From a virus, in the IMG/VR virus record IMGVR_UViG_3300030430_005256, positions 1 through 32,106 of that record: a DNA stretch of 32,106 nt; one strand, 5' to 3'. This document shows, piece after piece, positions 23,301 to 32,106 of the stretch (position 1 is its first letter; the number at the start of each line of letters is the position of its first letter). The notes below the pieces were generated by a model. That model was given only the letters and a program-made list of their open reading frames with translations. It was not told where the DNA came from and made no database searches. The translations under genes and the position numbers were made by a program.

Positions 23301-24713
23301 GCATTTGTTGGTATTGTAAGTAATACTAATTATTTGGTAGTTGATCAAGTTGATAAAAACTTTGTTTCTAGTTCTAGTGTCACACATGTTGCAACTGATG
23401 GAACTAATACAATAATTCCTGCAAACAGAGTAGAATCTGTAGTATCAGATCCAATTAAAGATGGGTTTACAATGGAATTTGATCATCGAAATCACGGAAT
23501 GCATGGTTCAAATAATAAAGTTCAAATTGAAGATTTTGAAGGTGATAGTAAATCAACCGATATATCAGAAGATATTTTGTTTGATTCAACTAGTATAAGT
23601 GTAGAATCGGATCAAAATTTTGGTACTTTTGAAGGTGCTGCTGTAGGTAGTGCACACACAGGATATGTAAAAATTGGAAAAGAAATTATTGGATACCACG
23701 GACCTGTATCTGGAAATGTTATTAATGGAATTTCTGAAAGAGGAGTTGATTCTAGTTTAATAGCAACTCATAGAGCAGGAAAAAGAAAAATTAGCAAATA
23801 TGAATTTAATGGCATATCTTTAAGAAAAATTAATAAAGTCCATAATATTGATGGTTCAAGAGATCGTACATTTAACAGTTATTATGTTAAATTAAATGAT
23901 GCTACAACAAATAAACCATTTAAAAGAACAAAATCAGGTGGAGGAAGTAAATTAAGAGTATCTCAAAATATTCCTTTTGAAGCAATCGATCCAAGAATTA
24001 CAATGATAAATCCAACTGGAACCTCGGTTTCTGCAAGGATTAAAACAACTTCAGGAAGTAGTGTGAGTGGAACAGAAGCATCATTTACTGATAAAGGTTA
24101 TGAAGATATAACCCTTAATAAACTGAATATTCTAGATGATCCAAGAATAGTTGCATCAAAAGTAAATGAGTTAAATCTATTGAATAATGAAAAATCATTT
24201 GCTTTGGAAGTAGTTCTTTCTTCTTCGAAACCAGATGTTTCTCCGATGATTGACTTAAACACACCAAATATCATTCTTATAAGTAATTTGGTTGATGATC
24301 AAGTTTCTAACTATACAGAAGATAGAAGATCAAGAGTTCAAGGAGAAGAACCAAATAGTGCTGTATATATTACCAATAGAATCAATTTAGAATTCCCATC
24401 AAATTCATTATATGTTCAGTTTGATGGTCATAAAGATGATGATTCAGACTTCCGTGTCTTCTATAAATTACACAGAAGTGATCTTCCTCAAAAACAAGTA
24501 TACAATCCATTTAATTTAGATGGTTCACCAGATACTTTTGTAGATCCAAATGTTAAGTATAACGGATTTAGTGAGTATAAGTATACTGCAGAAAATCTAC
24601 CACAATTTACTTCCTTTACCATTAAAGTTATTATGACATCTAAAAATCAAGCAAATGCACCAAGATTTAAAAACTTTAGAGCAATTGCTTTACGTTCATT
24701 TGATGTAGATTAA
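17379..24713 (+). CDS. DUF4815 / gp10-like giant baseplate or tail-fibre protein
   Basis: This 2444-residue protein opens with YYDDFDASKNYRKVLFKPGF and SRELSTLQSILHEQIEKFG, the signature I associate with DUF4815 phage structural proteins. A short coiled coil (YTMKDINSLESRIKTLEEYT) starts at residue 1115. The segment with YNCRSRNIEVTSTRLKPNT and ITSYCVPK lies at ~1407-1445. WYDPLAQSF at 1673-1681 opens a beta domain (GGNLYFKTKDDNVPVTVQIR) like that seen in gp10-type proteins. A GxGY repeat (TNGGTGYQVGD) lies near 1950, and a 'KIGKEIIGYHG...RGVDSS...H' module near 2090-2120. Following gp8 directly, it occupies the T4 gene 9/10 position and probably serves as the outer wedge or fibre attachment protein. 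No enzymatic motif was seen. The family call is from memory of the N-terminal motif. Confidence 0.82.
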   Translation: MSQVTNLNIAPYYDDFDASKNYRKVLFKPGFPIQSRELSTLQSILHEQIEKFGQHFFKEGSMVIPGGTIVDLSYFAVRIDPFFLNIPVKEYTKYLADNKIEIQGEISGVKATVVNRLTDGESVDQFDTLYLKYTASGDDGVTKTFLDGENLITLSDIEYSNTRITANSFFARTIISDSIKTGSSASISEGIFFIRGYFVQVPASTVILDQYENQPSYKIGLSINEELVSASSQNSDLFDNAKGYSNETAPGADRFKISAILSKKLLTDNDDSDFVELIRIEDGVTKEQVKKTEYNVFKDELARRTFDESGNYYIEPFSVDIRETLNNRIANRGLYFSNQITQNGNTPSDGLFTIQISEGKAYVSGYEIEKTSTTSIDLPKPRTTKSIENVTLPIKIGNIVVVNNIFGTPQIGFSTFVHLLDKRLTSSKGKDSTATLIGKARVYDFNQYTGTNYQLRLFDIETFTKVSLASTSSAVVGDHVEGKFSGSAGFVNEQTGTGSVLTLTDVSGEFQINEPILVNGIEVGSNIGTVSDFEFADIKAIHSDRGIGAGSKTFAADLELSHSKQVFQTGAEFQISVLSGGISTVTGPSVSDFRSLVKVGDIISYSSSSNLTNVDPTFNRVSGFGIGGTNFTIQNVADVSGICNGGVVGNSSPTDIFVRVPFLSKGSNPGFLIPFKEENIASLNLLDSNYITRKVFKVNASGQQVVLNLSSHGDNLFFEPFSITNYLATKDSNGNRITLREPQFVFSNNNRTLTISSLGVTGNVTVTATVKRTVFSSIEKNINRCASLVINRSNDASSGLTTTTLNDGLTFSRVYGTRVQDEEISLNVPEVHRVLDIFESDDDTNPNEPFFVVSSQSEGFTGNVIVGEQIIAEGSGAVARVTDVTNNTKIKFVYENDKTFEVDESITLVTSGIVAVISKLDSGDTSIVDNYILDNGQRQEFADYGKIVREKSAAAPNRKIKIIFDHFTRSGISTNGTVESINSYNTLDYSNEIPTIDGKSASDIIDLRPRVAPYDTSSTKSPFEFGSRDFSASETESLVSNQSVVVDYSYYLGRIDRVYLTKDGLFDVDEGTPSRFPKPPEKNPEAFEIGTITLPPYLINASTDTQTALKSHKRYTMKDINSLESRIKTLEEYTTLSLLETDTKNLSIKDPNTGLDKFKSGFFVDNFTSHKKSSMNRGERNFDIDREAGECRPKSTERTVSLKIETKSSKADPVNADYAWITDFEDSNITRNAQGLTLKYDEVEFINQPFATRVENLNPYHIALYAGSIVLEPSVDYWVEEIPLGTPAVFEDTSAWDAMADMYGVQDRENGGMASSFWNSHEVTWSGREEVVKRERFNVKRTVDTSEKKLRRSKHPHIRRITTRNINLKFDVERTLEEKGEEREFGFEVTPQYETVSLGKKVIGTEILYNCRSRNIEVTSTRLKPNTKFYVFMDNIDITSYCVPKLLQVSMTRGTFATGDIVESSTEVTNLLGFGETPDIMFRVAKENHKTGPFNAPTETYKNEPYTKSALSGSYSSSSTILNIDTAGLALEVEPNQLGWVRKGMTLASQNGNAEADISDLSLVTDEKGALTFSLHIPDPKIQSNPKFTTGTNTIRLTTSPTNESKLDPGECSAEATYKASGIGEITQEQILSIKTANVERKQIGDARVLSRMRTETERNKEETRVTQNDTGWYDPLAQSFLVEAKYQDGLFVTGGNLYFKTKDDNVPVTVQIRTMRDGTPTTTIVPFGEMNIDPADINLSDDSTVPTPFKFPTPVYLKSGKEYALTLVAPTEKYNHFITRMGEEDLILQAISNQQPYLGSLFKSQNQSTWTPSQFEDLKFTLNKAKFVTNTPSSFIFYNNQLDFGKIRKKNPVIAYSKTQRISIQGATTPTFIKGHELKQSTNTGRIVSIGASVQSGTSGLTFEGNTGIGLTNGTFAGIGASSVTGIGTGLEATVTVSGLSVNSINVTNGGTGYQVGDALVFDKVGNTGSTVRAFVGIVSNTNYLVVDQVDKNFVSSSSVTHVATDGTNTIIPANRVESVVSDPIKDGFTMEFDHRNHGMHGSNNKVQIEDFEGDSKSTDISEDILFDSTSISVESDQNFGTFEGAAVGSAHTGYVKIGKEIIGYHGPVSGNVINGISERGVDSSLIATHRAGKRKISKYEFNGISLRKINKVHNIDGSRDRTFNSYYVKLNDATTNKPFKRTKSGGGSKLRVSQNIPFEAIDPRITMINPTGTSVSARIKTTSGSSVSGTEASFTDKGYEDITLNKLNILDDPRIVASKVNELNLLNNEKSFALEVVLSSSKPDVSPMIDLNTPNIILISNLVDDQVSNYTEDRRSRVQGEEPNSAVYITNRINLEFPSNSLYVQFDGHKDDDSDFRVFYKLHRSDLPQKQVYNPFNLDGSPDTFVDPNVKYNGFSEYKYTAENLPQFTSFTIKVIMTSKNQANAPRFKNFRAIALRSFDVD

Positions 24714-24940
24714 TGAAAAACAATTTTATAAAAGTAAAGTCTGATGTTTCTTTAGTTAGAGATATAACATCTGACGCTATTGTAAATCGAAATAAAAGTG
24801 AATTTGATAAATTCAATAACTTATCAAAAATAAAGTATAAAGAAAAGCAAGAGTTTAATCAAGTAAAAACTGATTTGAGTGAAGTTAAACAGGAATTAAA
24901 AGAATTAAAAGAACTTTTAAAATCAATCGTACAAAATTGA
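24713..24940 (+). CDS. Small coiled-coil structural protein (75 aa)
   Basis: The 75-residue product begins MKNNFIKVKSDVSLVRDITSD. Its C-terminal half is a clear amphipathic coiled coil with heptad-like leucines and many Lys/Glu residues (LSEVKQELKELKELLKSIV). Its ATG overlaps the stop of the DUF4815 gene by one base (TAATG), which suggests coupled translation and a product that may trimerise with, or chaperone, that protein. I recall similar short 'VRD...AIVNRN' proteins beside tail genes in marine T4-like phages, but their function is not known to me. Confidence 0.75.
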   Translation: MKNNFIKVKSDVSLVRDITSDAIVNRNKSEFDKFNNLSKIKYKEKQEFNQVKTDLSEVKQELKELKELLKSIVQN

Positions 24941-24942
24941 AT

Positions 24943-24950
24943 TATAAATA
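24943..24950 (+). promoter_or_regulatory. T4-type late promoter TATAAATA
   Basis: This is an exact TATAAATA octamer, two bases after the stop of the coiled-coil gene and 29 bases before the ATG at 24980. Predicted transcription starts near 24956. It would drive the small tail-protein cassette and possibly run on into gp13-gp14. Confidence 0.75.
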
Positions 24951-24979
24951 TATCAAGATAGATTCTATTAAATTTAATA

Positions 24980-25318
24980 ATGGCAGCATATATCAGCAAT
25001 ATCGTAATTGATGCAGGGGCTGACTTTCAGCAAATTTTCACTCTTGAGGGTGCTAATAACTCTGCATTAAATTTGACTGACTATACTGCAACTGCAAAAA
25101 TAAAGAAACACCCTGCTTCTTTAAATGATACAGCTACTTTTTCTGTTTCTTTTCCAAGTCGATTGCAAGGGCAATTAAAATTATCTCTTGGTAGTGCAAC
25201 TACTAAAGATATAAAACCTGGTAGATATAGTTATGATGTTTTATTGGTAAGTGATGCAGGAATTAAATCAAGAGTCATCGGTGGTAGTGCAATAGTTACT
25301 GCTGGAGTTACCCGCTAA
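24980..25318 (+). CDS. Small beta-sandwich tail protein (112 aa), function unknown
   Basis: This 112-residue protein has alternating hydrophobic strands: NIVIDAGADFQQIFTLEG, then LTDYTATAKIKKHP, KLSLGSATTKDIKPGRYSYD and VIGGSAIVTAGVTR. The pattern 'D.GadF...f.L...L..yta.a.i', followed by 'lkpGrY.YDv.l' and a final 'VTR', is one I associate with small Ig-like phage tail or fibre-associated modules. It is the first gene after a perfect late promoter and is followed after five bases by a fibre-like gene. No signal peptide or enzymatic residues are visible. A role as a baseplate or fibre adaptor is inference. Confidence 0.78.
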   Translation: MAAYISNIVIDAGADFQQIFTLEGANNSALNLTDYTATAKIKKHPASLNDTATFSVSFPSRLQGQLKLSLGSATTKDIKPGRYSYDVLLVSDAGIKSRVIGGSAIVTAGVTR

Positions 25319-25323
25319 AAAAC

Positions 25324-25581
25324 ATGTCAGATATCAATGTAAGAGTTGTTTCACAAGATACAACTCAAGTCAAATTAGGAACTCAAAATGCGATAAAAGT
25401 ATTGTCAAGTTCTTCTGGAGGTGCAGGAACATTAGGTGGTTTAGCTGATATTGATATATCAGGTGGACTGGCAAATGGGATGGTTCTTGTATATAATTCA
25501 GGAACATCAAAATGGGAAGCTACTTTAGAATTAACGCCAGGTGAAACACAGAATTTAAACATCAATGGGGGAAGTTTTTAA
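25324..25581 (+). CDS. Small tail-fibre-like protein (85 aa)
   Basis: This 85-residue Gly/Ser-rich protein begins MSDINVRVVSQDTTQVKLG. A central segment (LGGLADIDISGGLANGMVL, then YNSGTSKWEAT) follows the 'L..L.DvdisG..nGmvLvYn....kWeaT' pattern that recurs in phage fibre proteins. It ends in NINGGSF, close to the end of the next gene (IDGGEF). The gene abuts the next one exactly, with its stop immediately followed by ATG. It may be a short fibre segment or an adaptor that co-assembles with the 438-residue product. Its function is not established from sequence. Confidence 0.75.
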   Translation: MSDINVRVVSQDTTQVKLGTQNAIKVLSSSSGGAGTLGGLADIDISGGLANGMVLVYNSGTSKWEATLELTPGETQNLNINGGSF

Positions 25582-26898
25582 ATGGCTAGTATAATAAGAG
25601 TAAAAAGATCAACGGGAACTGCTGCTCCAAGTTCTCTAAATTTTGGTGAATTAGGACTTACAATTGGTGTTGGAACTCATGGTAATAAAGGTGGTAGATT
25701 ATTTGTAGGTGATAGTAATGATGATGTAAGGGAAGTAGGTGGTAGATATTTTACAGATTTATTAAGTATTGCACCAGGTTTAGTTGCAGGTCAAGTTAAC
25801 CCAACAACTGCTGCAAATGGTTTTGCTGTAATTTTAGATTCAAATAGAAAAGTAGATCAATGGAATGTAGATAATTTAACTTTAGACGGGAACACTTTTT
25901 CTTCTACTAATACAGATGGGGATATAGTTTTAAATCCAAATGGAACTGGAGAAATAAACATTCCAGACGATACTTTCTTAAGTTTTGGTGATGGGAAAGA
26001 TGCAAAAATTGAGTATGATGAAACTGGCACTGATAAAGTTCAAGTAACAGGTGCTGGATGGGTATACAATGGTATTCCTGTAGAATTTCAAGGTGGTGGC
26101 GGTATAGTAATTGATAATATTGGAATATCTTCAAATGTAATTTCATCAAAATCTGGTGCATCAAATACTTTATTCATTGATCCATATCCAGATGGATTGG
26201 ATAGTGATGGATTAGTTGTTATTAAAGGTAGTCTTCAGGTTGATGGAACAACAACTAATGTTAATTCCACAACAGCGACTGTTAACGACTCAATGATTAA
26301 TTTGGGTGATATAACTAGTCAAAGAACAATTATGGCTCCAGTTGTTTCTGGAGTATCAACAGTAAAACTTGATTCACTTGTCGGAATTAATACTGGAGAT
26401 TTAATTAGTGGTCATCCATCTTTACCTACTCCTACAGGTACTCCAATAACTCAATATAATGTAGAAGTTGGAATTGTTACATTTACAGGAACTACTAATG
26501 ATGGTATTAGTACAACAACACAATTAACAGTCACTCATGCATTTGATACTAATACAGATAGAGGTGTATCATTTAACTATAATACAAGCACAGGAGTCGC
26601 AGGTATCAAAACTGGATTCTTCGGATATGATGATACTCACTCAAGATGGACATATATTCCTGATGCTAATATTACTGGTGGTGTTGCGATTGGTACTAAA
26701 GGTTTCCTAGATATTAAAGGAATATATTATCAAGCTGGAGATTTTTCAACTAGTGGTGTTGTTTACTTTGATTCAACTGGATTGCAGAAATCAACTGTGG
26801 CACCAGGTTCAGGAATCTCAACATCAAATGCAATTTTGACAACTGATGCAAGTGGTGTTCCTACTTGGACTTCGACAATTGATGGAGGCGAATTTTAA
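25582..26898 (+). CDS. Tail-fibre-like structural protein (438 aa)
   Basis: The N-terminus (IIRVKRSTGTAAPSSLNFGE, LGLTIGVG, GGRLFVGDSND) is the short 'lKRs...aP..L..GELgl......grLfvGd' module found at the start of many phage tail-fibre and short-fibre proteins. The body is beta-rich. Around residues 110-140 it contains TDGDIVLNPNGTG and FLSFGDGKDAKIEYD. A TTTNVNSTTATVNDSMINLG segment near 220-240 is typical of fibre shaft or marine phage virion repeats. No endosialidase-type chaperone domain, depolymerase motif or collagen-like repeat was seen. Host recognition or fibre structure is the likely role, inferred from the N-terminal module and the location between the baseplate and neck genes. Confidence 0.8.
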   Translation: MASIIRVKRSTGTAAPSSLNFGELGLTIGVGTHGNKGGRLFVGDSNDDVREVGGRYFTDLLSIAPGLVAGQVNPTTAANGFAVILDSNRKVDQWNVDNLTLDGNTFSSTNTDGDIVLNPNGTGEINIPDDTFLSFGDGKDAKIEYDETGTDKVQVTGAGWVYNGIPVEFQGGGGIVIDNIGISSNVISSKSGASNTLFIDPYPDGLDSDGLVVIKGSLQVDGTTTNVNSTTATVNDSMINLGDITSQRTIMAPVVSGVSTVKLDSLVGINTGDLISGHPSLPTPTGTPITQYNVEVGIVTFTGTTNDGISTTTQLTVTHAFDTNTDRGVSFNYNTSTGVAGIKTGFFGYDDTHSRWTYIPDANITGGVAIGTKGFLDIKGIYYQAGDFSTSGVVYFDSTGLQKSTVAPGSGISTSNAILTTDASGVPTWTSTIDGGEF

Positions 26899-26901
26899 AT
26901 T

Positions 26902-27075
26902 ATGGATAGTGAAGTTGATGTGAATATATTAATTAATCGATATCATCAAAAATTATCAACATTAGTTAATCAAAACATTTTATTAGAAGCCAAAATTGAA
27001 TCTTTAACTAGAGATTATTCTATTTTACAAGAAAAATTAAGTAATTACGAAAATCAGGATACAGAGAATGAGTAA
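26902..27075 (+). CDS. Small coiled-coil hypothetical protein (57 aa)
   Basis: This short frame encodes 57 residues (MDSEVDVNILINRYHQKLS ... NQDTENE). It starts three bases after the fibre-like gene and ends inside the start of gp13, with the ATG of gp13 (27068) eight bases before its end. The core (LVNQNILLEAKIESLTRDYS, ILQEKLSNYE) has heptad spacing of I/L residues typical of a coiled coil, and there are no membrane segments. It fills what would otherwise be the longest gap in the window, and the overlap with gp13 suggests translational coupling. The function is not recognisable. A small trimerising tail or neck factor is possible. Confidence 0.68.
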   Translation: MDSEVDVNILINRYHQKLSTLVNQNILLEAKIESLTRDYSILQEKLSNYENQDTENE

Positions 27076-27901
27076 ACCTAATTCCAGAGCAACACTTAAA
27101 GACTACTGTTTAAGAAGACTAGGATATCCTGTTTTGGAAATAAACGTAGATGATGATCAGATAGATGATCTAACTGATGATGCGATTCAATATTTTCAAG
27201 AAAGACATTTTGATGGTATTGAAAGAGTATTTTTAAAGCATAAGTTAACAGCAGCAGATATTGCAACAGCAAAAACAACACAGACTACATCATCATCAAC
27301 AACTGGTATTAATAATGGTATTACTTCATCTGGAAATTCAGACAGTTTTCTTGAAACAAATAACTATTTAAAACTACCAGATCATGTAATTGGTGTTGAA
27401 AAAGTATTTAAAATGGATCAAAACACAATATCTAGTGGTTTGTTTAATATTAAATATCAGATATTTTTAAATGATCTTTATTATTATGGTGCACTTGATC
27501 TTATGAATTATGCGATGACAAAAACATATTTGGAAGATTTAAGTCGTCTTATAACTCCAGATACTCAAATTAGATTTAATAAAAAACAACACAATTTGTA
27601 TATGGATATTGATTGGAATCAAATCAGTGCCGATACTTTTCTTATTTTGGATTGTTATCGATTAGTCGATCCTGGTACTGCAACAGATGTTTATAATGAT
27701 TTTTGGTTAAAAAGATACTTAACTGCTTTGATTAAAAAACAATGGGGACAAAATTTAATTAAGTTTCAGGGTGTAATGTTGCCTGGTGGAATTCAGTTGA
27801 ATGGAAGACAGATATATGATGATGCTATTAAAGAAATTGAAGAAATTGAATACTCACTCAAGACAGAATACGAATTACCACCTCTTGACCTAATAGGATA
27901 A
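27068..27901 (+). CDS. gp13: Neck protein gp13
   Basis: The 277-residue product fits gp13 of T4-like phages (T4 is about 309). The N-terminus (TLKDYCLRRLGYPVLEINVD, DDQIDDLTDDAIQYFQERHFDG) is the characteristic gp13 start. Conserved helical and strand blocks follow: LKLPDHVIGVEKVF at ~103-116, KYQIFLNDLYYYG, and DLMNYAMTKTYLEDLSRLIT. The C-terminal region has NDFWLKRYLTALIKKQWGQN, then LPGGIQLNGRQIYDDAI. A low-complexity Thr/Ser-rich insert lies at ~70-95. gp13 and gp14 form the neck that closes the filled head and allows the tail to join. gp14 follows after four bases. Confidence 0.94.
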   Translation: MSKPNSRATLKDYCLRRLGYPVLEINVDDDQIDDLTDDAIQYFQERHFDGIERVFLKHKLTAADIATAKTTQTTSSSTTGINNGITSSGNSDSFLETNNYLKLPDHVIGVEKVFKMDQNTISSGLFNIKYQIFLNDLYYYGALDLMNYAMTKTYLEDLSRLITPDTQIRFNKKQHNLYMDIDWNQISADTFLILDCYRLVDPGTATDVYNDFWLKRYLTALIKKQWGQNLIKFQGVMLPGGIQLNGRQIYDDAIKEIEEIEYSLKTEYELPPLDLIG

Positions 27902-27905
27902 TGTT

Positions 27906-29612
27906 ATGCCACTTTCTCCGTATTTTCTTCAAGGGTCAACAAACGAACAAAGATTAGTTCAAGATCTTATAAATGAACAATTAAAAATTTATGGACAGGA
28001 TGTTGTATATCTTCCTCGAAAGATTGTAAATAAAAATACAATCATGAAAGAAGTGACTGCATCAACATTTGATGATGCATTTCGAATGGAAGCATATTTG
28101 GTTAATTATGAAGGATTTGAGGGTTCTGGAGATGTATTATCAAAGTTTGGTATTCAAACAACTGATGCAGTATCATTTGTAATATCAAAGGAAAGATATG
28201 AAGATTTTATCAGTCCCTTCTTGACTGTTGATACTTCATATCAATTGGCAAGTAGACCAGAGGAAGGAGATTTAATATACTTACCTTTAGATAATACTAT
28301 GTTTGAAATAAAGTATGTTGAAGGTAAAAAACCATTTTACCAGTTGAATAACTTATATGTTTATACTTTAAGTTGTGAAGTAATGGATTACGCTCTCGAT
28401 GAGCAAATTGATACAGGAATTGAAGATGTTGATAAAGCAGCTGTAGAATTTGGATTTACCACTAAATTAACTATGGTTGGTGTAACTGCTGCTACAGCAA
28501 CAGCAACCGCACAATTAGCAAAAGACCTAAGTCTCCTTACGACTGGAAATTCTGTTAATCGTATCGATTTAATCAATGACGGAACTGGATATACCATTGC
28601 ACCTTTAATTGGTATATCTACAGCACCAACTAATGGTATTAATGCAACTGCAGTTGCAATTATGACAAGTCGAACTGGACAAACTGGACAGTCAATTGAT
28701 CGAATTGAAATAACAAATCCAGGATATGGATATACAGAAGTTCCTACAATTACAATTCGAAGTCAAAATGCCTTTGGAACAGGTGGAATAGCAACTGCAT
28801 TAATATCACCAACCTCAATTGGAGCACCAGTTATCACAGGTGGTGGTAGTGGATATGCATTCCCATCTGAGATATCACCAACAGTTACATTTACACCACC
28901 ATCCTCAAGAGCAACTGCAATTGCGACAGTTTCCTCTGGATCAACAGTTATAAATGCATTAACCATAACCAGTCCTGGCGTTGGATATACTGGAGTTCCA
29001 ACCGTTACAATATCTGCTCCTACGAGTGGAATTACAGCAATCGCAACTGCTACAGTAAGTGCTGGTGGAACTATTACAGGATTGACAATAAACAACGCTG
29101 GAACAGGATATACTTCATCTTCTGCACCTACAGTTACAATCAGTAATGAAGTTGGTATTAAGACTTGGACTGGAGAACTTGCAGAGGCAGTGTCATTCTT
29201 GAATACAAATGGAGAATTAAATGTAATTAGATATACAAACGCTGGTGTTGGATATACTGCAGGAAGTGCTCCAGAAATAACAATAAGTTCTCCAACAAAG
29301 GCAGGATTATCTACAGGAGATTACTTATTCAAGGAGATGGTTAGAGGAGTTTCTACAGGAACAACTGCATTTGTATCTGATTGGGATAGAGATACAAGAG
29401 TTCTTAAAGTTACAACATCATCTGGAACTTTCCTCACTGGAGAAACAGTTGTTGGTATTGGCACGACAATGAATGGATCAGATTCACAGTATGTAATTCA
29501 AAGCAAAACAGATGAAAATGATGATGATACTTTTGGAGATAATCTCACTGTAGAGACTGAAGCAGATGCAATTATTGATTTTTCCGAAGACAATCCCTTC
29601 GGAGATTTCTAA
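27906..29612 (+). CDS. gp14: Neck protein gp14 with internal GxGY beta-repeat array
   Basis: Residues 1-~205 match gp14: PYFLQGSTNEQRLVQDLINE, VVYLPRKIVNKNTI, EASTFDD-type and GDVLSKFGIQ blocks, then YLPLDNTMFEIKYVE and FYQLNNLYVYTLSCE. The C-terminus (DDTFGDNLTVETEADAIIDF, ending NPFGDF) also matches the gp14 tail. Between them, about residues 218-450 hold a Gly/Thr/Ile-rich array of at least five repeats, including NDGTGYTIAP, NPGYGYTEVP, GGGSGYAFP, SPGVGYTGVP, NAGTGYTSSS and NAGVGYTAGS. The array makes the protein 568 residues against about 256 in T4. The same repeat occurs in the giant wedge protein, gp8 and the DUF4815 protein. gp14 joins gp13 at the neck. The insertion would project outward as a beta-structure, which is an inference. 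Confidence 0.93.
   Translation: MPLSPYFLQGSTNEQRLVQDLINEQLKIYGQDVVYLPRKIVNKNTIMKEVTASTFDDAFRMEAYLVNYEGFEGSGDVLSKFGIQTTDAVSFVISKERYEDFISPFLTVDTSYQLASRPEEGDLIYLPLDNTMFEIKYVEGKKPFYQLNNLYVYTLSCEVMDYALDEQIDTGIEDVDKAAVEFGFTTKLTMVGVTAATATATAQLAKDLSLLTTGNSVNRIDLINDGTGYTIAPLIGISTAPTNGINATAVAIMTSRTGQTGQSIDRIEITNPGYGYTEVPTITIRSQNAFGTGGIATALISPTSIGAPVITGGGSGYAFPSEISPTVTFTPPSSRATAIATVSSGSTVINALTITSPGVGYTGVPTVTISAPTSGITAIATATVSAGGTITGLTINNAGTGYTSSSAPTVTISNEVGIKTWTGELAEAVSFLNTNGELNVIRYTNAGVGYTAGSAPEITISSPTKAGLSTGDYLFKEMVRGVSTGTTAFVSDWDRDTRVLKVTTSSGTFLTGETVVGIGTTMNGSDSQYVIQSKTDENDDDTFGDNLTVETEADAIIDFSEDNPFGDF
29583..29603 (+). terminator. Candidate hairpin at the 3' end of gp14
   Basis: TCCGAAG and CTTCGGA form a perfect 7-bp inverted repeat with a 7-base loop inside the last codons of gp14. 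A weak T-rich tract follows (gatttct). It could attenuate transcription or stabilise the mRNA end before the 27-base gp14-gp15 gap. The lack of a strong T-run makes it a doubtful intrinsic terminator. Confidence 0.35.
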
Positions 29613-29615
29613 ATA
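29608..29615 (+). promoter_or_regulatory. Weak late-promoter-like TCTAAATA upstream of gp15
   Basis: This octamer differs from TATAAATA at one base. It overlaps the gp14 stop codon and lies 24 bases before the gp15 ATG at 29640. It immediately follows the hairpin at 29583-29603. This could be a transcription boundary, but a one-mismatch octamer in AT-rich DNA is weak evidence. Confidence 0.25.
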
Positions 29616-29639
29616 GTTTGGATAGTAAATTATAAAATC

Positions 29640-30695
29640 ATGTTGGGAACATATTATTATCACGAAATAATTAGAAAGACTATCATAGCTTTTGGTACTC
29701 TTTTTAATAATATTGAAATTAAACATAAAACACAATCAGGAGGACCTCATTCTACTGTTAAGGTTCCGATTGCTTATGGTCCTACAGAAAAATTTGTTGC
29801 AAGATTAGAACAAAGACCAGATTTAAGAAATAGAGTTGCAATAACTTTACCTCGTTTATCATTTGAAATGGATGGAATATCTTATGATGCGACAAGAAAA
29901 GTTTCAACAATGCAAACTTTTAAAGCATTTACAAGAGATGGATCAAAAAGTGCAAGAAAAGTTTTTATGCCAGTTCCTTATAATTTAAGTTTTAAGTTAT
30001 ATGCGATGACTCAATATAATGAAGACTCTCTCCAAATTATTGAACAGATATTACCATTCTTCCAACCATCATTTAATTTGACTGTAAATTTAGTTTCTTC
30101 AATAGGAGAAAAAAGAGATATACCAATGATATTAGATTCAGTAAATTTTGAAGATAATTATGAAAGTGGTATGGATGAAAAAAGAGTTATTATTCATACT
30201 CTTGGATTTACTGCTAAAACATTCTTATTTGGTCCTGTTGCTGATAGTGCAAGTGGATTAATCAAAAAAGTTCAGGTTGATTATAATACAAATACTACAA
30301 ATAGAAAAGAGTCTTCAAGACAACTCCGATATATTGCAGAACCAAGAGCATTGAAAGATTATAATGATGATGGAGTTACATCTCTTGCTGAAAATATAGA
30401 TAAAAAAGTTAAGAGTTTCTTGGTATCAGATACATCAAGTCTCACCACAACCACTTATGTTGCAATTGATAATGAACTAATGTATATAACTGCAATTGAT
30501 GGTAACAAGATAACTGTAAGACGTGGTGAAGATGGTACAATTATAGATACTCATACAAGTGGAACAAATGTTGATGCAGTAAATGCTGCAGACGATGCTC
30601 TAGTTGAACTTGGAGATGACTTTGGATTTAGTGAACAACGTTTTGATTTTAGTGATGGAAAAATTTATAGTCCAACAAAAGGAGTTGATGTATGA
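29640..30695 (+). CDS. gp15: Tail completion / sheath terminator protein gp15
   Basis: The first ~210 residues match T4 gp15 (272 residues). The start MLGTYYYHEIIRKTIIAFG corresponds to the T4 gp15 opening. It is followed by LFNNIEIKHKTQSGG, VKVPIAYGPTEKFVARL, ITLPRLSFEMDGISYDATRK and IIEQILPFFQPSFNLTVNL, then RDIPMILDSVNFEDNY. gp15 forms a hexameric ring on top of the tail tube and sheath and binds the neck. Residues ~260-320 add a module (AIDNELMYITAIDGNKITV, RRGEDGT...HTSGT) that T4 gp15 lacks and that resembles modules in the giant wedge and DUF4815 proteins. The 3' end overlaps gp16 by four bases (ATGA). Confidence 0.93.
   Translation: MLGTYYYHEIIRKTIIAFGTLFNNIEIKHKTQSGGPHSTVKVPIAYGPTEKFVARLEQRPDLRNRVAITLPRLSFEMDGISYDATRKVSTMQTFKAFTRDGSKSARKVFMPVPYNLSFKLYAMTQYNEDSLQIIEQILPFFQPSFNLTVNLVSSIGEKRDIPMILDSVNFEDNYESGMDEKRVIIHTLGFTAKTFLFGPVADSASGLIKKVQVDYNTNTTNRKESSRQLRYIAEPRALKDYNDDGVTSLAENIDKKVKSFLVSDTSSLTTTTYVAIDNELMYITAIDGNKITVRRGEDGTIIDTHTSGTNVDAVNAADDALVELGDDFGFSEQRFDFSDGKIYSPTKGVDV
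30677..30684 (+). promoter_or_regulatory. Strong Shine-Dalgarno sequence for gp16
   Basis: AAAAGGAG lies seven bases before the gp16 ATG at 30692, inside the end of gp15. It is one of the few clear Shine-Dalgarno sequences in the window and fixes the gp16 start. Confidence 0.6.
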
Positions 30696-31123
30696 GTAAA
30701 TTTGACGAAATAGATGAATTTTTGGAAGTAGAAGCAATTGATTCTCCAATAAATTCAAAGGAACCAAAAAAAGGTGAGATTAAAAAGAAAAAAGATGATG
30801 AAACAATCGACTATGAATATACAAGAGGTAATTTATATTCTTTAATCGAAAAAGGTCAAGAAGCACTTGATAGTATTTTAGAAGTTGCACAAGAAGGGCA
30901 ACAACCAAGAGCATATGAAGTGGTTAGTCAATTACTTAAGAATGTTGGAGATACTACAGATAAGTTAATGGATCTCCAGCAAAAGAAAAAAGAACTTACA
31001 AAAGATGATAATAAATCGCCAACAACTGTAAACAATTCTTTATTTGTTGGATCAACTTCAGAACTATCTAAATTATTGAAGAAAGGAATAATAAATAATA
31101 AAGTGGAGAATGAAGAAGAATGA
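30692..31123 (+). CDS. gp16: Small terminase subunit gp16
   Basis: The 143-residue acidic and basic protein is close to T4 gp16 (164 residues). The core at ~45-95 (DYEYTRGNLYSLIEKGQEAL, DSILEVAQEGQQPRAYEVVS, QLLKNVGDTTDKLMDLQQKK) is the characteristic gp16 helical region, which oligomerises into a ring. The N-terminus is acidic with a Lys-rich stretch (KKGEIKKKKDDE). The C-terminus (NSLFVGSTSELSKLLKKG) matches the part of gp16 that interacts with the large subunit. gp16 recognises DNA and regulates the gp17 ATPase and nuclease during packaging. It overlaps gp15 and the next gene by four bases each. Confidence 0.93.
   Translation: MSKFDEIDEFLEVEAIDSPINSKEPKKGEIKKKKDDETIDYEYTRGNLYSLIEKGQEALDSILEVAQEGQQPRAYEVVSQLLKNVGDTTDKLMDLQQKKKELTKDDNKSPTTVNNSLFVGSTSELSKLLKKGIINNKVENEEE
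31090..31097 (+). promoter_or_regulatory. Candidate late promoter AATAAATA inside gp16 end
   Basis: AATAAATA fits the relaxed NATAAATA motif and lies 22 bases before the ATG at 31120. It could give the basic head-protein gene its own late transcript. It sits within a simple AT-rich codon run (ATAATAAATAATAAA), so chance is a serious alternative. Confidence 0.25.
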
Positions 31124-31830
31124 AGTCGTTCAACGAATTTATACAAGAAAGTAGTTTAACAAGATTGAAAAGCAAATCCGATAAAGGAGGAATGGCTGTT
31201 CTTTCTGGAAGTCGTGCTGACAAATCTGCAAAAGAAAATAAAGCAAGAGCAAAGCAATTAGATAAAGATATTCGTGGTAAAGGTTTACCAGGTGCAACTA
31301 AAGTAACTGGTAGATATGATGAAAAAGATAAAAAAACAGGGAAGGTAACAAAAGTCAAAGAACGTTCTCACGTTGTAACTTCTGGTAAGATGGGTAAGAG
31401 AAAGTTTAAAAAAGCAATCAAAGCACTTGGTAAAAAATATGATCAGGATGCAGTAATTACACAAACAAAAGGTGGTGGAGGTGCTACACTCAAGAGAACT
31501 CGTAAAGGTGCACTACCAAAAAGAAATATTAAAATTGGTAAGATGAGACCAGGTAGAACTGGTGAAATGGATACTAAAATTAAAGGTAAAACATTTACTT
31601 ATGAATCATCATATCTTCGTGTTCAACAAAGAGGTAGAACTTTTTCAATCGTTTTAAATTGGAAAGGAAGACTTTTAAGTACACAAATGTTCTTTCCACA
31701 ATTTACAAGACCAACAAAAGAACAAGTAACTTTTGAAATTAATAAAGTATATCCAGGTGCTATGGTATACTATTATAATCCTATCGAAAAAGATCCATCG
31801 CAACCGTTGGTGTTTGCTGGAAGAAGTTAA
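31120..31830 (+). CDS. Basic protein with capsid-targeting-like N-terminus, candidate internal head protein
   Basis: This 236-residue protein is very rich in Lys and Arg (for example KMGKRKFKKAIKALGKKY and LKRTRKGALPKRNIKIGKMR). The first ten residues, MKSFNEFIQE, resemble the MKTxxEFIxE capsid-targeting sequence of T4 internal head proteins. They end in I-Q-E, which fits the L/I-x-E cleavage rule of the gp21 prohead protease; no other L/I-x-E site was seen. Residues ~25-115 follow a 'LSGSRADKSAKEN..R...L...I...G......GRY.E' then 'ERSHVV' and 'LGKKYDQDAVI' pattern that recalls DUF3293-like proteins. The C-terminus is a beta-rich segment (SYLRVQQRGRTFSIVLNWKG). It lies between the two terminase genes. 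Packaging in the head is inferred, and its activity is unknown. Confidence 0.82.
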   Translation: MKSFNEFIQESSLTRLKSKSDKGGMAVLSGSRADKSAKENKARAKQLDKDIRGKGLPGATKVTGRYDEKDKKTGKVTKVKERSHVVTSGKMGKRKFKKAIKALGKKYDQDAVITQTKGGGGATLKRTRKGALPKRNIKIGKMRPGRTGEMDTKIKGKTFTYESSYLRVQQRGRTFSIVLNWKGRLLSTQMFFPQFTRPTKEQVTFEINKVYPGAMVYYYNPIEKDPSQPLVFAGRS

Positions 31831-31841
31831 AAGTTTTAATT

Positions 31842-32106
31842 ATGTCTGATAATGTTTATCTTGGTAATCCAAATTTAAAAAAAGCAAATACACAGATTCA
31901 ATTTTCTGCGAGGCAAATTGAAGAGTTTGTTAAATGTAAAAATGATCCATTATATTTTACACAGAAGTATGTAAAAATAGTCAGTCTTGATGAAGGATTA
32001 GTTCCTTTTCAACCATATAAGTTTCAAGAAAAATTAATTAAAAGATTTCATAAGAATCGTTTTAACATTTGTAAGATGCCTCGTCAGACTGGTAAGTCTA
32101 CGACTG
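31842..32106 (+). CDS. gp17: Large terminase subunit gp17, 3' end missing
   Basis: Only the first 88 codons lie in the window. They begin MSDNVYLGNPNLKKANTQIQ, then FSARQIEEFVKCKNDPLYF and LVPFQPYKFQEKLIKRFHKN, and end in CKMPRQTGKSTT. The PRQTGKST segment at ~80-87 is the ATPase Walker A loop of gp17 (T4 has SRQLGKTT at about 161-168). gp17 is the packaging motor, with an N-terminal ATPase and a C-terminal nuclease. The distance from the start to Walker A is about half that in T4, so the N-terminal extension is shorter here. The start is 11 bases after the preceding gene, without a strong Shine-Dalgarno sequence. Confidence 0.94.
   Translation, partial: MSDNVYLGNPNLKKANTQIQFSARQIEEFVKCKNDPLYFTQKYVKIVSLDEGLVPFQPYKFQEKLIKRFHKNRFNICKMPRQTGKSTT

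Follow-up and report, generated by a model that had tools for sequence, protein, structure and literature searches.

The window we analyzed, which is the whole 32,106-nucleotide stretch (a 32 kb virus record with a G+C content of 31%), contains a T4-like late gene cluster in which gp13, gp14, gp15 and gp16 are followed by an open reading frame (ORF) at positions 31120–31830 and then by gp17, with the region 24713–32106 most closely resembling cyanophages and single-cell marine viruses at DNA identities of 66–70%. The upstream neighbor, gp16, encodes the terminase small subunit (30692–31123, plus strand; phrog_445, 4.9e-50), and the downstream neighbor, gp17, encodes the large subunit (31842–32105, plus strand; phrog_5989, 9.3e-24) and is truncated by the end of the window. 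Between them, on the same strand, the ORF starts with an ATG that overlaps the gp16 stop codon by 4 nt (ATGA), coupling it translationally to gp16, and encodes a protein of 236 amino acids. We know of no gene between 16 and 17 in T4. Judged by substitution rates against its close relatives, the ORF is evolving under purifying selection, with dN/dS values of 0.06–0.22 for the first, larger part of the protein versus most relatives (a divergent exception, L063, gives 0.56) and of 0.35–0.49 for the C-terminal part. From residue 11 onward the product is strongly basic, as an earlier note on this DNA had stated, with a pI of 10.6 and 55 K/R against 18 D/E.

Residues 11–162 (31150–31605, plus strand) are predicted to form an S-adenosylmethionine (SAM) lyase domain with a PII/CutA-like ferredoxin fold. 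The Pfam family S-AdoMet_lyase (PF23780) matched residues 27–162 at 7.4e-16 and 58.7 bits, above its cut-off of 28, while the earlier suggestion that the middle of the protein is DUF3293-like and of unknown function had to be abandoned, with DUF3293 (PF11697) scoring 16.6 bits against a cut-off of 25 and the nearest relatives falling below that cut-off too. PADLOC and NCBIfam searches of the window protein returned no match. Two AlphaFold models of modest confidence (mean pLDDT 55 and 60) gave the expected strand-helix-strand-strand-helix-strand order, and a Foldseek comparison with 350,542 PDB chains placed SAM lyases at the top (6zm9, 8bb1, 7ock and 6znb), followed by CutA/PII folds, in line with what has been published for the SAM lyase family. 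Svi3-3 was the top match, and chains of Svi3-3 and T3 SAMase filled ranks 1–7 and 1–6 for these modest-confidence models. The link to the solved lyases in the PDB came from the fold search only; PDB sequence searches with the window protein, profile A2 and the Alishewanella homologue found no lyase match, the similarity being too low.

In Svi3-3, SAM is contacted by Gly56, Tyr58, Glu69 and Gln104, and Tyr58 bonds Glu105 (PMC7877911). These residues align with G64 and Y66 (31309–31317), E81 (31360–31362) and Q109-D110 (31444–31449) of the window protein, all on the plus strand, and these five positions are invariant across 28 relatives. The G, Y, E and Q positions are also invariant in an alignment of 10 sequences, T3 among them, and the SAM-binding residues are kept among relatives with as little as ~30% identity. 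The spacing from Tyr to Glu is 11 in Svi3-3, S-N03 and S-CREM2, and the hairpin of the window protein is 4 residues longer; our alignment puts E81 on T3 Glu67 where the published residue is Glu68, an off-by-one ambiguity at low similarity. Taken together, alignments and models give good support for the window protein being a member of the phage SAM lyase family with an intact SAM-binding site. It shares with Svi3-3 (PDB 6ZM9/6ZNB; PMC7877911) the fold and the SAM-binding G, Y, E and Q(-E/D), although identity is ~13% and packaging is not known for Svi3-3, and it shares with the T3 gp0.3 SAMase the Pfam family, the fold and the key G, Y, E and Q, although the T3 enzyme lacks a capsid-targeting sequence and is the first viral protein made after infection rather than being carried in the head. 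The T3 lyase is labeled "SAM-dependent methyltransferase" in RefSeq (L094:901–1359) and in phrog_2226, a name that misleads annotation of the family.

Ahead of the lyase domain lies a short N-terminal segment. The T4 internal proteins IPII and IPIII carry the capsid-targeting sequence (CTS) MKTYQEFIAE. Within the CTS of T4 IPIII, positions 4 and 7 decide targeting and positions 8 and 10 decide processing (PMC9026906), and the first ten residues of the window protein, MKSFNEFIQE (31120–31149, plus strand), agree with this rule at all four positions (F4, F7, I8 and E10). The T4 prohead protease gp21 cleaves after L/I-x-E; I8-Q9-E10 is such a site and places the predicted cut at E10|S11 (31147–31152, plus strand), within a hydrophobic-x-E|S-S pattern that is invariant in relatives. 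The motif occurs in just 1 of the 16 main ORFs of the window, the ORF at 31120–31830, and a Peptidase_S77 prohead protease is encoded ~8 kb from the lyase gene on the contig of a close relative. We conclude that MKSFNEFIQE is, on good sequence support, a textbook T4-type CTS, and both the targeting motif and the protease site that the earlier note had read here stand.

To these can be added the N-termini of 80 metagenomic relatives, of which 77 have a complete 5' end (L045, for example, lacks it). All 77 start with M[KRI]x[FY]xx[FY] and have [ILVM]-x-E|SS, a count that may be mildly biased toward CTS-bearing relatives, one of our six search patterns being the CTS itself; homologues without the N-terminal motif, which had been named as grounds for rejecting the proposal, numbered 0 among the 77. 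The P3 position of the cut site is I in 43, L in 14, V in 12 and M in 8, and the distance from start to cut is 10, 13, 16, 17, 19, 61 or 62 residues. Given that the ends of the propeptide are kept while its middle varies, this arrangement fits a targeting element joined to a protease site. A putative CTS-less class (L017, L018, L020, L022, L023, L043, L044 and L046–L048) was rejected, as its members have an MKSF[ASK]DF start ~52 residues upstream; in these loci a basic insert of ~52 residues, with the sequence KKxEERKPQKAMDAGARGRRMLQRREYAAKVSAFIPDELKDHY in the L017/L018 class, lies between the CTS body and I-D-E|SS.

Similar N-termini were found in more distant lyases, including MDKQTTFKEFLTE|SSLTR in L117, MSKQYKQFINE|SSLSR in L109 and MRTFQEFLQLCE|GGLAR in P-SSM2, and weaker forms of the CTS in an Alishewanella phage (MNFVQLLESEINALSE|SSLSR), Microcystis phage Mel-JY01 (MQFKQYILGE|SSLSR) and Campylobacter phage CP220 (...KFNE|SSLAR). 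Our scan of bacterial genomes gave two distant matches only. One of the two, the bacterial homologue L106 (an 804-aa frame), has no CTS and carries ITPSRL in place of the phage ESSLSR, and thus the lyase fold does not itself demand E|SS. Among P-SSM2-type relatives (L136–L147), CTS-like segments (YYKDFINIVE|GN or TYRSFIDE|GN) are internal and follow another N-terminal domain, which suggests longer propeptides or polyproteins. The gene directly after the P-SSM2 lyase homologue, P-SSM2_115 (L097:3480–3740), starts with the CTS-like MKSFKQFLEEA.

Residues 163–236 (~74 aa; 31606–31827, plus strand) form a separate small domain with a predicted beta-beta-alpha-beta order, recognized by a phrog match, by the model and by its solo occurrence in the slot between gp16 and gp17. 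Residues 167–225 match phrog_1742 at 7.5e-5, and the form in L018 matches phrog_10346 at 1.6e-8. The domain sits directly before gp17 without a lyase in other cyanophages (S-SSM7, AG-345-O18 and many contigs), sometimes with a CTS of its own (MKDLNQFISE|ASK), and also forms part of a 517-aa S-SCSM1 protein present in virions. Slot proteins of phrog_1742 and phrog_10346 (S-SSM7_139, S-SCSM1_30 and the AG-345-O18 slot ORF) thus share the C-terminal domain, the gp16-gp17 neighborhood and in some cases the CTS with the window protein, but they lack the SAM lyase domain, and a short form of the lyase stops where the slot domain starts. The simplest history is the insertion of a lyase cassette between a CTS and an older resident slot domain. 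Since the window protein differs from its nearest relative class by a dN of 0.03 in the lyase part and of 0.32 in the C-terminal part, the two parts have probably been shuffled. Ahead of the C-terminal domain, E162|S163 reads T-Y-E|SS with Thr at P3, and in slot relatives (L159–L238) hydrophobic-x-E|[AS] (T next) regularly precedes the slot domain; from sequence, a second cut at E162|S163 that parts the lyase from the slot domain is possible.

Evidence from virions comes from the cyanophages S-CREM2 and S-SCSM1. S-CREM2 gp6 (WNL50925), annotated as a "SAM hydrolase," is 53% identical to the window protein over residues 1–166, matches PF23780 at 2e-19, and has the N-terminus MKDFDSFLEE with a site reading LEE|SSLSR, although its gene lies among recombination genes rather than between gp16 and gp17 and it has another C-terminal extension. 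Mass spectrometry of virions purified on CsCl identified it by 19 unique peptides at 26% coverage (PMC10665884). In the portions of that paper available to us, the authors do not discuss the CTS; they propose that such proteins enter with the genome, yet they allow for contamination of the virion preparation, and the nonstructural virion proteins they describe there include kinase- and nucleotidyltransferase-like enzymes (PMC10665884).

We translated all 219 genes of S-CREM2 and scanned the first 12 residues for a strict motif, F..F[ILMVF].E, which was present in four proteins, every one of them detected in virions (p=0.003). With a wider motif, adopted after inspecting S-CREM2, seven of eight were detected (p=2e-4). 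Two S-SCSM1 proteins carry the strict motif, and one of them, an NMN adenylyltransferase, is present in virions, while the other, a 106-aa slot protein, was not detected there; pooled over both phages, 5/6 strict-motif proteins were virion-detected (p=0.001). Packaging of the window protein in the virion is supported through the homologue gp6. Further CTS-like N-termini occur in the virion-detected S-CREM2 proteins gp12, gp13, gp14, gp136 and gp154 (loci L090 and L093), among them the Cas9-annotated gp12 (RFASFMAEA), the kinase-like gp14 (VKRFDAFLTEE) and the cytidylyltransferase gp154 (MKNFSSFLTEA), and by their N-termini these proteins are candidates for injected enzymes.

The position of the gene also bears on when it is expressed. 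The slot copy of the lyase gene sits in the late cluster gp13-gp17, and most motif-carrying copies outside the slot (in P-TIM68, S-N03, S-CREM2, AG-345-L05 and several contig families) have the late-promoter-like ATAAATA 22–31 nt upstream. Among short-form loci, which are not independent of one another, ATAAATA was found upstream of 9/29 (one of them at 50 nt) versus 13/363 control ORFs. A late promoter for the window gene itself was considered and rejected: its ATAAATA at 31090 lies inside gp16 codons, and most slot relatives have CTAAATA there. Late synthesis of an anti-restriction enzyme is most sensible if the enzyme is destined for the next cell.

From the sequence and structural observations, the biology of T4 internal proteins and the biology of SAM lyases, we think it likely that the ORF encodes a packaged and trimmed SAM lyase that is ejected with the DNA and, by depleting SAM, blocks SAM-dependent restriction or BREX. 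The T4-type CTS would load the lyase into the prohead, and a gp21-type prohead protease would trim it after Glu10. The trimmed lyase would stay in the mature head and enter the next host alongside the DNA, where it would split SAM into methylthioadenosine and homoserine lactone. With SAM gone before or during genome entry, SAM-dependent defenses such as type I restriction and BREX could be blunted with no need for phage expression. Precedents exist for these steps: CTS fusions are packaged and delivered in T4 (PMC9026906), the T4 internal protein IPI is injected and counters restriction, and SAM lyases neutralize restriction-modification and BREX (PMC12255297). The T4 internal proteins IPI, IPII and IPIII and Alt resemble the window protein in their CTS, L/I-x-E cut and basic or enzymatic cargo, but their cargo domains are unrelated and no SAM lyase cargo is known in T4. 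The idea of a packaged, ejected effector gained support on the side of packaging, from S-CREM2 gp6 and the conserved motif of the 77 relatives; that the protein is cut at Glu10, that it is ejected, that it serves to deplete SAM and which defense it overcomes are inferred.

Alternatively, a packaged SAM lyase could serve mainly in host take-over, lowering SAM or inhibiting SAM synthetase and so perturbing methylation and metabolism. Heteropolymer formation by the T3 SAMase leaves methionine adenosyltransferase inactive (PMC8406200), the complexes 7ock and 8bb1 are among our fold matches, and the kinase- and nucleotidyltransferase-like companions in the S-CREM2 virion would suit such a role, but T3-type lyases are established as counter-defense and a head carries a limited dose of enzyme; we regard this reading as unlikely. 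It is also conceivable, although distinctly improbable, that the lyase is unpackaged and active in the producing cell, with an N-terminal motif that is generic or due to chance. The possible contamination that the S-CREM2 authors allow for in the case of gp6 (PMC10665884) and the undetected CTS-bearing protein of S-SCSM1 would fit this, but the CTS body and cut site persist in 77/77 relatives across propeptides of 10–62 residues, the motif occurs in few proteins, with virion proteins overrepresented among them, gp6 was identified by 19 unique peptides, and the window gene overlaps gp16 within the late cluster.

Two further readings change what the domain is for. The earlier note had read the basic mature part as fitting a DNA-condensing or co-ejected internal protein, and a lyase-fold internal head protein that condenses DNA or helps to assemble the head, with catalysis irrelevant, would suit both the pI of 10.6 and the basic, abundant internal proteins of T4 (PMC9026906). 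Against it stand an intact SAM-binding site, invariant down to ~30% identity, the low dN/dS of 0.06–0.22 in the lyase part versus most relatives, and the many T4-like cyanophages without a recognizable copy, which together leave it very improbable. The slimmest chance of all goes to a packaged lyase that, once injected, would act as an anti-CRISPR by destroying the type III CRISPR messenger SAM-AMP and not SAM; a phage SAM-AMP lyase with the same PII-like fold and key glutamate does exist (PMC12255297), but the curated Pfam match and the best fold matches here are SAM lyases.

Each element has a precedent: SAM lyases, cargo with a CTS and, in one case, a SAM "hydrolase" detected in virions. 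In the open-licence literature we found no paper joining a SAM lyase with CTS or internal-protein packaging; searches of that literature for cyanophage capsid targeting returned a T4 review only, and for a cyanophage SAM hydrolase the S-CREM2 paper only. With the packaged lyase as our preferred reading, we lean slightly toward the broader view that large T4-like phages generally rely on a SAM lyase carried in the head, which they inject so that SAM is cleared at time zero. That view covers cyanophages and several uncultured myovirus-like phages, and perhaps Alishewanella, Campylobacter, Microcystis and Lak phages, whose lyases would have CTS N-termini ending in x-E|SS or a near variant.

The unusual finding of a SAM "hydrolase" among the virion proteins of a cyanophage gains independent, sequence-based support from the analysis, which also offers a simple motif, with a predictive value based on two proteomes, for seeking further ejected enzymes in T4-like cyanophages. 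A marine phage gene that had no explanation can now be treated as a testable enzyme with a route of delivery. If the general strategy holds, CTS tagging would be a plug-in means of delivering SAM lyase, NMN adenylyltransferase-like, kinase-like and Cas9-annotated proteins into the host. SAM lyases are known as early-expressed counter-defense, and a virion-delivered lyase would act ahead of all phage expression, solving the timing problem of early expression.
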